Of a DNA stretch of 15,731 nt, positions 4,154 through 10,306 are shown one piece after another. A program made the translations under genes and the position numbers. The DNA is from Verrucomicrobiota bacterium. GTDB lineage: Bacteria; Verrucomicrobiota; Verrucomicrobiia; Chthoniobacterales; UBA10450. The notes under the pieces are model-generated. The model had not been told where the DNA came from. It saw only the letters and a list, made by a program, of their open reading frames with translations, and searched no databases. The stretch is taken from contig QHPM01000224.1 of NCBI GenBank assembly GCA_003219095.1, positions 1 to 15,731 on the forward strand. Reading direction: 5' to 3'. How positions within the stretch are numbered: the first letter of the stretch is position 1; the number at the start of each line of letters is the position of its first letter.

Positions 4154-4162
4154 GACATTCCA

Positions 4163-4273
4163 TCATCCCGAATCGCACGGACGATGAGGGACCGCATATC
4201 TGAGGATGAAGCATACAAGTTATTTTGCGTGACCTATCAGCTTCCGCGAGGACCGTCACTTCGTTCGGGATGA
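4163..4273. repeat. 111-bp palindromic element between pckG and uvrA
   Basis: The ends TCATCCCGAA (4163-4172) and TTCGGGATGA (4264-4273) are perfect 10-base inverted repeats. They match the ends of the elements at 116, 4812 and 7463 (TCATCC[CT]GAG type), but the interior differs, so this is probably a divergent family member. It begins 10 bases after the pckG stop and ends 56 bases before the uvrA start. It could act as a transcript-end hairpin, though no T-tract follows. Confidence 0.7.
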
Positions 4274-4329
4274 CACGCGGTTTGGCGGGTAAAATTTGCG
4301 AAGCGCGGTCGCAGCGCGGATAATTTCCA

Positions 4330-5799
4330 GTGGGTTCGAAGGTCGTAGAAAAAAATTGCGTCATCGCGCCGGCTGAGCGTGGCTGCGTCGAAATCCGCGG
4401 CGCGCGCCAGAACAACCTCAAAGGCATCGATCTCGATCTCCCGCTTGGAAAATTAACCGTTGTCACCGGCCCGAGCGGGAGCGGAAAGTCTTCGCTCGCC
4501 TTCGACACTATCTATGCCGAAGGGCAGCGCCGTTACGTCGAGACCTTTAGCCCCTACATGCGGCAATTCCTCGAGCGCATGGACAAACCGCGCGTCGAGG
4601 ACATTCGCGGGATTCCGCCCGCGATCGCGATCGAACAATCGAATCTGGTAAAAACGTCGCGCTCGAGCGTTGGCACCATCACGGAGATCAACGATTTCTT
4701 GAAATTGTTCTGGGCTCGCACCGCGGGCGCGTTCTGTCCAAGCTGCGGCCGCGAAATTCGCCCGGAAACGGCGACGTCGATCGCGGATCAGGTGCTCGGG
4801 CTTTTCGGCGATCATCCCGAGTCCCGCGGGCGCGGGATCGAGGGATCGCGAGGCGAAACCTCAAAGGTAACGCAACGGGCTCCTTCGACCCCGAAAGCAT
4901 TCGGGGCTCAGGATGACCAGCGCAAGAACGGCAGAACTATTCTCATCACCTTCTGGGTCGGTGTTCCGGCGAAGGCCAAACCGCGTGACTTTTTCCAGTT
5001 TCTCCAGCAACAAGGCTACCTGCGTGTTTGGCTGAACAACAAAATCATTCGCGTAGATAGCGACGCAAAACTCGAGCGCCTGGGGGCGCGCGTTCAAGTC
5101 ATCCAGGACCGCATCGTCGTCAGCGAAGAAAATCGTGCGCGCTTAACTGAGGCCATCGAGACAGCGCTTCGTTTCGGTAAGGGCAAAATCAACGTCATTT
5201 CGTTTCCTGCGGAGCCAGACATGTCGCCTGCAATTTCGAAAACTGCGGCCGACACGGCCGCCGCTACCGGTAACGAGCACCCATTCTCCACCGGCTGGCA
5301 TTGCGCGCATTGCGACCTCGACATCCGCCCTCCTACGTCGGGGCTTTTCAGCTTCAATAATCCGCTTGGCGCCTGCCCGGAATGCCGTGGGTTCGGTCGC
5401 ACCATCGCGATTGATCTGAATCGCGCGATTCCGGACCGATCGCTCTCGATCGGACAAGGGGTGGTGCGCGTTTTTCGCGGGCAGGAAATGGGCGAATCCC
5501 AAAAGGATCTGCTGCGGGCGTGTGCTCGCGAGGAGATCGATGTGCATACGCCTTTCAACGAACTGTCCAAGGCCGATCAGGATTTTGTCATTAACGGTGA
5601 GAAACGTGGGGGCGAATACACCGATGACGATTACGAGAACGATCGCTGGTACGGAGTCCGCGGTTTCTTTCGCTGGCTCGAATCGAAGACTTACAAAATG
5701 CACGTCCGCGTCCTGCTCAGTCGCTATCGTGCTTATGTGAAGTGTCCAAGCTGTGAGGGCGGACGCTATCAACCGGAGGGCCGCCCTCCCGATTTCTGA
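4330..5799 (+). CDS. uvrA: Tandem-type excinuclease ABC subunit UvrA, 5' fragment (first ABC half of copy 1)
   Basis: UvrA is the damage-recognition ATPase of nucleotide excision repair. This 489-residue part starts from a GTG at 4330 and reaches conserved sequence at VEIRGARQNNLKGIDLDLP. The Walker A GPSGSGKSS lies at residues 47-55, followed by FDTIYAEGQRRYVETFSPYM and the UvrB-binding/signature region AIAIEQSNLVKTSRSSVGT. Cysteine pairs CPSC (~4736), CAHC with CPEC around LFSFNNPLG (the insertion-domain zinc finger, ~5306-5382), and CPSC with EGGRY (~5746) follow. An 106-bp palindromic element (4812-4917) is translated as extra residues. Homology ends at RYQPE (~5775); the next frame continues with [11 protein letters not shown]. 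Compared with the second copy in the same gene, about 15 codons are missing at the break. The frame terminates at 5799. Confidence 0.9.
   Translation: MGSKVVEKNCVIAPAERGCVEIRGARQNNLKGIDLDLPLGKLTVVTGPSGSGKSSLAFDTIYAEGQRRYVETFSPYMRQFLERMDKPRVEDIRGIPPAIAIEQSNLVKTSRSSVGTITEINDFLKLFWARTAGAFCPSCGREIRPETATSIADQVLGLFGDHPESRGRGIEGSRGETSKVTQRAPSTPKAFGAQDDQRKNGRTILITFWVGVPAKAKPRDFFQFLQQQGYLRVWLNNKIIRVDSDAKLERLGARVQVIQDRIVVSEENRARLTEAIETALRFGKGKINVISFPAEPDMSPAISKTAADTAAATGNEHPFSTGWHCAHCDLDIRPPTSGLFSFNNPLGACPECRGFGRTIAIDLNRAIPDRSLSIGQGVVRVFRGQEMGESQKDLLRACAREEIDVHTPFNELSKADQDFVINGEKRGGEYTDDDYENDRWYGVRGFFRWLESKTYKMHVRVLLSRYRAYVKCPSCEGGRYQPEGRPPDF
4812..4917 (+). repeat. 106-bp palindromic element translated inside uvrA (KVTQR family)
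   Basis: It begins TCATCCCGAG and ends CTCAGGATGAC, inverted repeats matching at 9 of 10 positions. The core AAAGGTAACGCAACGGGC is shared with the elements at 7463 and (reverse strand) 116. In the uvrA frame it encodes PESRGRGIEGSRGE, then SKVTQRAPSTP and ending AQDD. It falls between LGLFGD and the TILITFWVGVP strand, where UvrA homologues have only a short loop. Confidence 0.85.
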
Positions 5800-8700
5800 C
5801 GCGCGCGATTTACTGGCTGACATCGAAATCGCGCCGGGTGACAGCACCGCGGAAATGCTTCGCAACGAAATTTGTGCGCGACTGCGGTATCTTTGCGAAG
5901 TCGGCGTCGGTTATCTCACCCTCGATCGGTCTACTCGCACCCTGAGCGGCGGCGAGATGCAGCGGGTCAATCTAACCACCTGTCTCGGCGCATCGCTCGT
6001 GAACACACTCTTCGTCATGGACGAACCCAGCGTCGGATTGCATCCCCGCGACGTCGGGCGGCTCGTGCGAGTGATGCACAACCTGCGCGATAAAGGCAAT
6101 ACCCTGCTCGTGGTCGAGCACGATGAGCAAATCATCCGCGCAGCCGACAACTTGATCGACATCGGCCCCGGTCGCGGCGAACGCGGCGGCGAACTGGTGT
6201 GGAGCGGTGGGCTCGAGGAATTTGTAGGTGGATCGGCCGCTCCGCGGGCGATGCCAAACACAATCGCGGAGCGATCAAAAAAGGGCCGCTTCGCGGTTTC
6301 GGGGTTAACATCTTCCGCAGAGCGGCCGATCCACCAATCACTCACGCGCGATTACCTTACCGGTCGCAAATCTATCCCGATTCCAAAATCGCGGAGGAAG
6401 TTTTCATCCGTTATCAAAATCACGGGCGCGACTGAGCACAATCTCAAGCACGTCGATGTCGAGATTCCACTGGGAGTTTTTACCGCCATTACGGGCGTGT
6501 CGGGTTCGGGAAAATCGACCCTGATTCAGGATGTGTTGTATCGAAATCTTTTGCGAGCCAAGGGCCAGCCAAGCGAGCACGAACCGGGCGCATGTCGGGC
6601 AGTGACTGGCACACATCGATTCGACGAAATCGTCATGGTCGATCAATCGCCGCTGGCGCGCACGCCGCGTTCGACCCCGATCTTGTATCTTGGGCTTTAT
6701 GATCGCGTGCGCGAACTGTTCGCGGCCTTGCCGCAAGCGCAGGCGCAAGGACTGACCGCGAGCGCTTTTTCGTTCAATTCCGGGGCCGGCCGGTGCGAGC
6801 GTTGCAACGGCACTGGTTTCGAGAAAATCGAGATGCAGTTTTTGAGCGACCTCTATGTCCGGTGCGCGGAATGCGAAGGCAAACGCTTCCAGCCGCACGT
6901 GCTCAAAATTCGGCTACAGGGAAAATCGATTCATGATGTGCTCGAGCTCACCGTGACAGAAGCAGCCGCCTGGTTCGCCCAGATCAGCGAGCGCGAAAGA
7001 TTATCCGATCCCCTGGAAATCCTGGAAGAAGTCGGGCTAGGGTATTTGAGACTCGGCCAACCCCTTAACACTTTGTCGGGGGGCGAATCGCAACGTCTAA
7101 AACTCGTTCGTCACCTTGCTGAAACCGGAGGGACGCCCTTTAATGCCAGTCCGGCTCGGACCGCGTCCACGGACGAGCGGAAGCTCGTCCCTCCGCACGG
7201 CAATCTTTTTATCTTCGACGAACCAACCACCGGGCTGCATTTCGATGATGTCGCGATTCTGTTGCAATTGTTCCAACGATTAATCGACGCCGGCCATTCG
7301 CTGGTTGTGATCGAGCATAATCTCGAAGTGCTTAAATGCGCCGACTGGATTATCGATCTCGGACCCGAAGCGGGCGAGGAGGGCGGTGAAGTTGTTGCCG
7401 TTGGAACACCAGAACAGATTGCGAAGGTTGAGTGCTCGCATACGGGAAGGTTCTTGAGGAGCGTCATCCCGGGCGCAGTCGAAGGATCCCGTGGCGATGG
7501 CTTTAAGGTTACGCAACGGGATCCTGCGACTCCGCTTCGCTACGCTCAGGATGACGGGGAGGAATTTGCGTTACGCGTCGCGGAAGAGCCGTCCGGCAGA
7601 ATGCTCGCGCTCTCCAGACAAAATATTGCAAACGGCGCCATCCAAATTCATGGCGCGCGCGAGCATAATTTGAAAAACGTCGACGTCGCGATTCCGCGCG
7701 ACCAGCTGGTTGTGATCACCGGCCTGAGCGGGTCAGGAAAATCCACGCTCGCTTTCGACATATTGTTCTCGGAAGGCCAGCGCCGCTTTCTCGACAGCAT
7801 GTCGCCTTATGCCCGACAATTCGTCGAGCAGCTGGAAAAACCGGACGTCGATCTGGTCGAGGGGTTGCCGCCGAGCGTTGCGATTGAGCAGCGTGTCACG
7901 CGTGGTGGCGGGAAATCAACAGTCGCGACGGTGACGGAAGTTTATCATTTCCTGCGGTTGCTCTTCGCGAAAACCGGCACTCAATTCTGCCCGGGTTGCG
8001 ATCTGCCAGTCGAAAAACAAACGCTGGCTGCGATCGTTAAACAAGTGGAAGCGGCGGCCCGCCGTGGCCCACTGAAGGTGCTGGCGCCGCTGGTGAAAGC
8101 GCGCAAGGGGTTTCATACCGATGTCGCGCGTTGGGCCGAGCGCAACGGATTCGACACCCTTTTCGTCGACGGGCAGTTCGTTTCGGTGGGGCAGTTTCGC
8201 CGGCTTGAGCGTTTCAAGGAGCACACCATCGATGTCGTTGTCGGCGTGATCGACAAGAAGCGGATCGCCAAGGCGCGCAATCTCAGCCAGCGCGCGCTCG
8301 AGATTGGCCGCGGTACCGCCCGTCTCATCGATGCGAAGAATCGACTCACGATCATGAGCACGGAGATGAGTTGTCCGGGTTGCGGACGCGCCTTCGAAGA
8401 ACTCGATCCGCGATTGTTCTCATTCAATTCGCCACACGGGGCCTGCCAAGAATGCGGCGGCTTCGGCGAAATCTGGAACCAATCGCTGCAAGTCGGTGAA
8501 AGCGAGAATGGCGAATCCGTCCTCGAAAATGAACTTGCCGCCGAACGTGAATCGGAATGGATCGAAGAAAGTGAAGCGCAGATCTGCCCGGCTTGCCATG
8601 GCTCGCGTCTGAACGCGATCGCACGTCACGTGCGCGTGCAAAACATGGCAATCGACAATTTCACGGCGCTTTCGGCCGCCGCCGCCGCGAAACAGATCGG

Positions 8701-10306
8701 GCGACTAAAATTTAGCGGCAAACAAAAAACCATCGCGAGCGAATTGATTCCGGAAATCGTGCAGCGGCTTCGATTCATGGACAATGTCGGTCTCGGCTAT
8801 TTGTCGTTGGGTCGATCGGCCAAGACTTTAAGTGGAGGTGAATCTCAGCGGATTCGCCTGGCGGCGCAGCTCGGCTCGAATTTGCGCGGCGTTCTCTACG
8901 TGCTGGATGAACCGACGATTGGTTTGCATCCGCGCGATAACGTGCGGCTACTCGAGACGCTGGCGGCATTGCGCGCAAAAGGAAACTCGCTCGTCATTGT
9001 TGAGCACGACGAAGCAACCATGCGTCGCGCCGATCACATCATCGATCTCGGCCCGCGTGCCGGAATTCACGGCGGCGAAGTCGTTGCCAGAGGATCGCTG
9101 CGCGAGATCGAGCGCGCGAAAAATTCCGAGACTGGACGTTGTCTAAAAACGCCGCTTTGTCATCCCATTCGCAAATCACGGCGAAGCCTGCGTGACGTTG
9201 CGGGTTGGGTCGAGATCATGAATGCGCGAGCGAACAATCTGAAAAACATCGAGGTTAAATTTCCTGTCGGTCGCTTGTCGCTCATCACCGGAATTTCCGG
9301 CAGCGGCAAATCCACCTTAATGCATGACGTGCTCTTGCCACTCGTTCGGGCTGTTCTGGGGAGCGCACGCGCCTCGCGTGCTGATCGCGGCGCCTCACCG
9401 CGATCCTCTTCGAGACAAAAAGAGCTTTTCGGCGAGGGCGCCGAAAAGAACACGCGAGGCGCGTGTGCTCCCCAGAATCAAATTCGCGGGATCGACTCGA
9501 TCGATGCGGTTTATGAAGTGGATCAATCACCCATCGGGAAAACTTCACGCTCGACCCCGGCAACCTACATCAAGGTCTTCGATGAGATTCGCAATCTTTA
9601 CGCGCAGGTTCCGGTTGCGCGCATGCGCGGGTACAGCCCGAGCCGGTTCTCCTTCAACGCCGAGGGGGGACGTTGCGAGTCGTGCAAAGGCCAGGGCATG
9701 ATCAAATTGGAGATGAATTTTTTGCCGAGTACTTACGTGCCTTGTGAAGATTGCGGCGGAAAACGCTACAACGCCCAGACGCTCGAAGTTCTTTATCATG
9801 AAAAATCGATCGGAGACGTGATGGAAATGACGATCGAAGAAGCGGCCCAATTTTTCAAAACCAACCCCAAGGTCGCGCGATCGCTTTCGCTGCTTGTCGA
9901 TACCGGACTTGGTTATCTAAAGCTGGGGCAACCGAGCCCGACTTTGAGCGGCGGCGAAGCGCAACGGCTGAAGCTAGCGACTGAGCTAACCCGCGGGATC
10001 GGTCGCGTGCAACACGAGCGGATCCGTAAAATGCGCAAGCCGAAATCGACGCTTTATCTATTGGAGGAACCGACGATTGGCTTACACATGGCCGACGTGG
10101 AATTGCTGCTGAACTTGCTGCATCGGCTGGTAGATGACGGTCATACCGTCATCGTGATTGAGCACAACCTCAGCGTAATTGCGGAAGCAGATTACATTGT
10201 CGATATCCGGGTGAGCCGAACCGCGCCATTTTTGCGGGAAGTTCTGGCGCACACCGGCAAAAGCGCACTCGAGCCACCACTTCGCGTGCCGCGTGCCGGA
10301 TCATAG
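5753..10306 (+). CDS. uvrA: Tandem-type UvrA, 3' fragment (rest of copy 1 and all of copy 2)
   Basis: From about 5785 this frame continues the UvrA begun upstream. The GTG at 5753 overlaps the 5' fragment by 47 bases and is not a true start. Copy 1 finishes with LSGGEMQRV (~5942), [12 protein letters not shown], a second ATPase (Walker A ~6493, zinc finger CERCNGTG...[27 protein letters not shown]). Copy 2 runs from ~7650: Walker A ~7722, CPGC...CQEC finger, LSGGESQRI ~8829, [12 protein letters not shown], Walker A ~9290, CESC...CEDC finger, LSGGEAQRL ~9943 and finally [10 protein letters not shown], where the usual Walker B Asp is Glu. Four palindromic elements (6227, 7126, 7463, 9356) are translated in frame. 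Near the C-terminus YIVDI joins directly to RVSRTAPFL; copy 1 has 22 more residues there ([15 protein letters not shown] onward). Tandem double UvrAs of about 1,850-1,900 residues are known; UvrA acts with UvrB and UvrC at lesions. Confidence 0.92.
6227..6335 (+). repeat. 109-bp palindromic element in uvrA, long inverted ends (type 2)
   Basis: The two 21-base ends are inverted repeats matching at 20 of 21 positions; the left end starts GGTGGATCGGCCGCTC and the right end finishes AGCGGCCGATCCACC. Inside lie two mini-hairpins, ATCGC-GGA-GCGAT (6263-6275) and CCGC-TTC-GCGG (6286-6296), so the transcript could fold into a multi-branched shape. It is translated as [12 protein letters not shown] onward, between EEFV and [14 protein letters not shown], i.e. 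at the join of the two ATPase halves of UvrA copy 1. Confidence 0.87.
7126..7195 (+). repeat. 70-bp palindromic element in uvrA (type 3)
   Basis: The ends CGGAGGGACG (7126-7135) and CGTCCCTCCG (7186-7195) are perfect 10-base inverted repeats. Near the right end GGACGAGC-GGAA-GCTCGTCC (7171-7190) forms a perfect 8-bp hairpin. It is translated as about 23 extra residues ([19 protein letters not shown] followed by LVPP) between RHLAE of the signature helix and [10 protein letters not shown] of Walker B, a place where other UvrAs have a short linker. Confidence 0.8.
7463..7555 (+). repeat. 93-bp palindromic element in uvrA linker (KVTQR family)
   Basis: It begins GTCATCCCGGGC and ends GCTCAGGATGAC, inverted repeats matching at 10 of 12 positions. 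It is exactly 31 codons long and encodes [19 protein letters not shown] then [12 protein letters not shown]. The core and the 3' part match the element at 4812-4917 in both nucleotides and reading frame. It lies in the linker joining UvrA copy 1 (ending SHTGRFLRS) to copy 2. Confidence 0.87.
9356..9475 (+). repeat. 120-bp cloverleaf-like palindromic element in uvrA (type 4)
   Basis: The 25-base ends are inverted repeats matching at 24 of 25 positions; the left starts CTGGGGAGCGCACGCGCC and the right ends GGCGCGTGTGCTCCCCAG. Inside are three further hairpins: GATCGCGG/CCGCGATC (9383-9405), CTCTT/AAGAG (about 9406-9424) and CTTTTCGGCG/CGCCGAAAAG with a 4-base loop (9425-9448). It is exactly 40 codons and is translated ([20 protein letters not shown] onward) after the Walker A helix of the last ATPase half. 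Confidence 0.9.

Follow-up and report, generated by a model that had tools for sequence, protein, structure and literature searches.

The window analysed here, 15,731 nt of contig QHPM01000224.1 (assembly GCA_003219095.1) read on the forward strand, corresponds to contig C285 in a genome that is 74.4% complete and comprises 377 contigs (2.38 Mb). The source is a Udaeobacter-like Verrucomicrobium, a soil bacterium; the named relatives nearest in UvrA are metagenome-assembled genomes (MAGs) of soil Verrucomicrobia, and the 80 loci kept include one from a Candidatus Udaeobacter MAG. The subject is a tandem uvrA—one gene encoding two UvrA copies—that carries several short palindromic elements in its coding sequence. 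Here the gene is divided over two open reading frames (ORFs) of the forward strand, both recognised by UvrA family matches and by matches to solved UvrA structures: ORF 4330–5799 holds the first part of copy 1, and ORF 5753–10306 holds the remaining copy 1, the linker, and copy 2. In most aligned relatives, the tandem uvrA is a single frame, and a UvrA match is present in all 58 genomes, the source genome included, being weak in two of these (G043 and G052). The elements are very probably the outcome of repeated insertion of mobile palindromes resembling repetitive extragenic palindromic (REP) sequences, which are retained only where they are in frame and harmless.

A sequence-only reading of the window had described five palindromic elements read through in one UvrA frame. 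All five are found, and each lies in a UvrA ORF; the gene, however, is split near 5780, which places element 1 in ORF 4330–5799 and the other four in ORF 5753–10306, and a sixth element was overlooked. The labels Walker A, signature, and UvrB-binding region follow the common UvrA domain vocabulary. Element 1 (4812–4917, type A, a GTCATCC...GGATGAC palindrome) lies in the loop opening the UvrB-binding region of copy 1, element 2 (6227–6335, type C, with GGTGGATCGGCCGCTCCGC ends) in the linker that joins the two nucleotide-binding halves of copy 1, and element 3 (7126–7195, type D, GGAGGGACG...CGTCCCTCC) in the interval between the signature helix and Walker B of the same copy. Element 4 (7463–7555, type A) occupies the linker between copy 1 and copy 2, and element 5 (9356–9475, type B, with the long arms GGGAGCGCACGCGCCTCGCGTGC) follows the Walker A helix of the last nucleotide-binding domain in copy 2—all five on the forward strand. 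The overlooked element 6 (5213–5276, reverse strand, type E) is a decayed doublet of GTAG REPs. The first five elements have a combined length of 498 nt, or ~166 codons, in line with the earlier estimate of about 165 added residues. Elements 1 and 4 match each other at 79% over 56 nt and are members of the same family; the five thus represent four types, as had been proposed.

Each of the five elements folds into a hairpin that spans almost its whole length. Folded as single DNA strands, elements 1–5 reach z-scores of −5.47, −7.43, −3.31, −5.14, and −12.19, and none of 200 dinucleotide shuffles matched the fold of any element, each tested singly; the fold of element 6 is not significant (z −0.73). 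With RNA energies, none of the 1453–1483 equal-length window stretches per element, taken at 10-nt steps outside the elements, folds as well. No Rfam family reached the threshold in the window, and a known structured RNA was rejected as the identity of the elements.

The palindromes are dispersed in multiple copies. Elements 1–5 yielded, in this order, 20, 17, 16, 53, and 43 rows in their own genome (E ≤ 0.001, counts that include self and reverse-strand rows), so that the reverse outcome—elements occurring nowhere else in the genome—did not materialise; for type D this dispersal is weak, the matches of element 3 being short (20–34 nt) and weak. Of the 37 genomes of family f1, 28 have type A and 31 have type B, versus one and six, respectively, of the 21 other genomes; at most the best 15 candidates per genome were scored, which makes presences surer than absences. 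Among 11 full-length copies of type A retrieved by pattern, five are a multiple of three in length. Hence, keeping the frame is no built-in property of type A. Further type A-like sequence was seen by eye in intergenic DNA at 4160–4275, upstream of uvrA, and at 130–200, near the window start.

An alignment of 45 sequences shows 11 intervals in which f1 members exceed the outgroup median by at least 10 residues, the main ones of which were grouped into seven sites, S1–S7. By a length rule, an insert is present in 10 of 26 family rows at S1 (the site of element 1), 14 of 27 at S2, 22 of 26 at S3, 20 of 27 at S4 (element 2), 14 of 27 at S5 (element 3, a site variable among relatives), all 27 of 27 at S6 (element 4), and five of 28 at S7 (element 5). 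Across species, different repeat families have come to occupy the same seven loops of the tandem UvrA, and unrelated peptide sequences fill one and the same site in different relatives: the typed inserts at S3 are type B in one row, type D in one, and type E in 11, those at S4 type B in four and type C in five, and those at S6 type A in 12 and type B in three. At the site of element 6, type E is found in seven of 27 family rows. Conserved UvrA domains were rejected as the identity of the inserts, as a recognised element is absent from all 13 outgroup UvrAs, which represent other families and phyla—conservation across distant phyla, which would have spoken against the sequence-only reading, was thus not observed. 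Longer loops of other, untyped sequence are present in four of these 13 (L114, L120, L132, and L137).

Empty sites in relatives, together with the dispersed copies, bear out the earlier view of the elements as mobile-type repeats. For element 2, L111 and L126 run uninterrupted where the window has the 109-nt palindrome; the site of element 1 is empty in L096 and L098 and short in L111; and element 5 of the window is missing from all seven closest rows. Empty sites are thus seen for elements 1, 2, and 5. At the site of element 5, L094, L095, L111, and L126 bear a short native segment that is apparently missing from the window, and about a dozen residues may thus have been replaced upon insertion. 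On a core tree of 41 UvrA rows—built by a quick method, with some open forks and long outgroup branches—the fewest presence/absence changes for S1–S7 are 9, 8, 2, 5, 3, 0, and 5, i.e., 32 over 28 family rows, and this minimum rises to 60 when the element type is taken as the state; these counts do not separate gains from losses.

On the protein level, a structure prediction of window positions 5780–8377 (28 sequences, mean predicted local distance difference test score [pLDDT] 78.9, predicted template modelling score 0.70) shows four segments with pLDDT < 50: residues 155–184, 451–470, 565–617, and 706–714. The first three coincide with elements 2, 3, and 4, the third extending into the remaining linker, and these elements are accordingly predicted to be disordered loops. 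Elements 1 and 5 fall between matched segments in the alignment to solved UvrAs. The ratio of nonsynonymous to synonymous substitution rates (dN/dS) amounts to 0.06–0.11 for the core (copy 2, alignment columns 1500–2120, the window versus four sisters in four pairs) and to 0.22–1.76 for the inserts (16 pairs, few sites each). Hence, the enzyme is constrained and the insert peptides far less so. That the tandem UvrA is unusually tolerant, one of two explanations previously offered, gains support from a comparison of proteins: 25 family UvrAs carry a mean of 107 extra residues over the outgroup median (range 52–172) at 4.6 sites each, versus 21 extra residues in the 21 family DnaE1s compared, which show a length gain at two sites, one of them in 14 of 21 and the other in 14 of 20 proteins. 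CarB had been taken as a quiet control gene and failed as such, as it carries in-frame insertions of its own (a mean of 136 extra residues in 26 family rows, mainly from one site).

A search of the own genome for Y1_Tnp, the domain of REP-associated tyrosine transposases (RAYTs), led to four loci: L203, L204, L206, and one within carB (L267). The RAYT of L204 is flanked on both sides by the type E GTAG repeat, GTAGCGGCGGCC...GGCCGC, of the same kind as element 6. The RAYT-like gene of L206 is flanked by GTAGGGACGCATC repeats, which are GTAG repeats other than type E, and the RAYT within carB is likewise flanked by inverted GTAG-tagged repeats other than type E. Adjoining the hairpin, GTAG is present in type E, type B copies mix GGTAG and GGGAG starts, and types A, C, and D show no conserved GTAG (for type D, among only three contexts). 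Nor was the terminal tag CGTC found as a feature of type A, whose copies start with GTC preceded mostly by G (40%), not C, in 53 contexts; element 4 itself reads CGTC at 7462–7465. Di Nocera et al. 2013 (PMC3733652) allow TGTC and CCTC as variants of CGTC REPs.

Taken together, we propose that several non-autonomous hairpin repeat families of the REP or REPIN (REP doublet forming a hairpin) class insert across these Verrucomicrobial genomes. Insertions into uvrA would survive only if their length keeps the frame, if they bring no stops, and if the site is a surface loop or an inter-domain linker. With at least seven such tolerant loops, the tandem UvrA would therefore have become a museum of insertions, with elements gained, lost, and exchanged at its sites from one species to the next. 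Once translated, the inserts would be roughly neutral padding, while the enzyme core remains under selection. RAYT transposases, with the single-stranded hairpin as their substrate, are the probable catalysts of the movement itself. From the patterns described above we infer transposition as such, translation of the inserts in the cell, and RAYTs as the movers of types A to D.

Several observations weigh against this proposal. Among the 112 occupied cells of the site table, 52 are not assignable to types A–E, and the linker between copy 1 and copy 2 is longer, by untyped sequence, in three outgroup rows as well. Neither CGTC nor GTAG is conserved as a tag in type A, for which a RAYT partner was likewise not seen. 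The window gene is split by a frame shift, and this copy may be non-functional. Lastly, the synonymous divergence (dS) of the inserts lies below that of the core, contrary to expectation: for element 2 versus the core, it is 0.24 versus 0.98 between the window and L096 and 0.12 versus 0.50 between the window and L095. Any one of three causes would suffice to explain this: a recent insertion, gene conversion involving other copies, or a constraint on the hairpin.

Such low divergence at synonymous sites would also be expected if the elements were domesticated—as functional linkers or as mRNA or single-stranded DNA hairpins regulating uvrA—so that occupancy itself is selected. The copy 1–copy 2 linker, lengthened in all 27 family rows by inserts of differing type, fits this idea as well. 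Yet the sequence of the insert peptides is weakly constrained, sisters often have no insert at the remaining sites, and unrelated peptides are found at a single site; we consider domestication unlikely.

The frame break deserves a separate look, as it also bears on whether uvrA is just a decaying pseudogene that collects insertions. At the ORF junction (5773–5790), the window is short by ~92–95 nt compared with relatives, and the frame is shifted. Close relatives bear a palindromic element at this position: in the six closest rows covering it, five have a GTAG-type (type E) palindrome and one has type D. A real deletion or an assembly collapse at the palindrome, either one, could possibly account for the break. 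The uvrA of L118/L126 is likewise divided into two frames, which together with the window's own shift is what a pseudogene would lead one to expect. Against this stand the open frames of the relatives, which span ~1,800–2,030 aa between stops and carry inserts of the same kinds, and the low core dN/dS given above, so that a decaying gene appears very improbable.

The second explanation offered from the sequence was that the elements target coding DNA. In the own genome, where the best rows of each search were fetched, the 92 loci correspond to 67 regions and 87 merged places. Sixteen of these 87 lie inside a frame open for at least 50 codons on both sides, or 17 if element 1 is counted, the frame of which runs off the end of the locus; six of the 17 are in uvrA itself. 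Targeting of coding DNA is thus not supported, most places being outside long frames. A narrower version would have repair genes as targets. The elements found in frame elsewhere are in a FadJ-like protein, at the NuoM end, and in an error-prone DNA polymerase, a Y-family polymerase, and an Ogg-type glycosylase (the latter three at L053, L060, and L091), giving four damage-repair genes among six with uvrA included, or four among eight with two weak 20-nt matches, in a list picked by eye. The apparent excess of repair genes among element-bearing genes has a parallel in Di Nocera et al. 2013 (PMC3733652), where many repair genes are named among REP-bearing genes. Nevertheless, the genes are few, two of them are on one contig (C86), and the match in the error-prone polymerase comprises only 26 nt; targeting, whether of coding DNA or of repair genes in particular, is quite unlikely. 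The two matches of element 3 in pdxA and in a Uup-like gene, each of ~20 nt, may be due to chance, and for a NuoN-like frame that contains a type E match, the family search gave no hit.

The RAYT within carB is a case of its own. In the own genome (contig C178), the gene lies at 446–4477 of L267 on the reverse strand, with an open frame of 1344 aa and flanking GTAG repeats, and the in-frame RAYT interrupts the match to the CarB oligomerisation domain after position 55 of 80. Its Y1_Tnp score is 26.9 bits, above the curated cut-off, in one search and 22.1 versus a cut-off of 23 in another. Among 18 CarB loci, selected because CarB appeared long or split, 14 hold a complete in-frame RAYT (13 in f1 and G045 of another family); of the other four, G025 bears repeats alone, and the linker is short in G007, G014, and G017. 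A listing of public proteins over this region comprises 120 entries, and in all 118 that could be measured the linker is at least 200 residues long; this list is ranked by similarity to a fused query and is uninformative on frequency. The HUH and tyrosine motifs, the two catalytic motifs of RAYTs, are both kept in 116 of the 118. The dN/dS of the CarB RAYT is 0.11 over 175 codons between G010 and G004, the sole compared pair with unsaturated dS. The automatic name of the Joint Genome Institute, "carbamoylphosphate synthase large subunit/REP element-mobilizing transposase RayT", reflects the fusion, and no paper on it was among the results listed in our literature searches. RAYTs are described (PMC8049555) as single-copy, vertically inherited, domesticated transposases, and translation within CarB would be an extreme form of this domestication.

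With the whole CarB locus searched against the own genome, the CarB REPs matched only each other among the best 40 of 158 candidates. A link of type B to the CarB RAYT of G002 was considered for similar-looking ends and is not claimed. Several family genomes bear a second, smaller in-frame insertion in carB at CarB model position ~740, and near it, in the own genome (L267), 107 nt match another contig at 84%.

One could go further and picture a system of protein-loop remodelling, in which a RAYT kept through its translation within CarB moves hairpins in frame into the loops of other proteins, repair enzymes foremost, so that the linkers of repair proteins would be continually replaced selfish DNA. 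This scenario is speculative, and we regard it as rather unlikely. The tandem uvrA offers a natural experiment as to where, in the loops of a large multi-domain enzyme, a foreign peptide is tolerated, and selfish repeats form inter-domain linkers across a bacterial family. The CarB–RAYT fusion would, moreover, suggest one way in which a single-copy transposase persists for long—an open question for RAYTs.

Compared with known systems, the gene is of the tandem UvrA (PRK00635) kind in having two UvrA copies, although ORF 5753–10306 scores 943 bits versus a curated cut-off of 3054 and the loops carry inserts here. REPIN/RAYT systems (REPtrons) are resembled by type E, which has GTAG and flanks a RAYT gene; they are usually extragenic, however, and types A, C, and D bear no conserved GTAG end. 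The palindromic elements of Rickettsia, formerly suggested as the nearest precedent, are likewise palindromes inserted in frame into protein genes, and the empty sites in relatives fit this pattern of insertion, by which the two are likened here; they belong to another phylum. A closer precedent is provided by the intragenic GTAG/CGTC REPs of Di Nocera et al. (PMC3733652), which are likewise short, dispersed palindromic repeats, often dimers, translated in frame within ORFs. In that study, these include both uvrA genes of Opitutus terrae, next to intragenic REPs in a Thioalkalivibrio uvrA and in uvrB of R. conorii. The kind of insertion is thus already known, with REPs in verrucomicrobial uvrA published. 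There, each uvrA is reported with two inserts, whereas here six elements of five types are found in one tandem uvrA, and different families re-use the same loops across species. As far as our literature searches show, the number of repeat families in one gene, the family-wide re-use of its loops, and a linker built from repeats are new.

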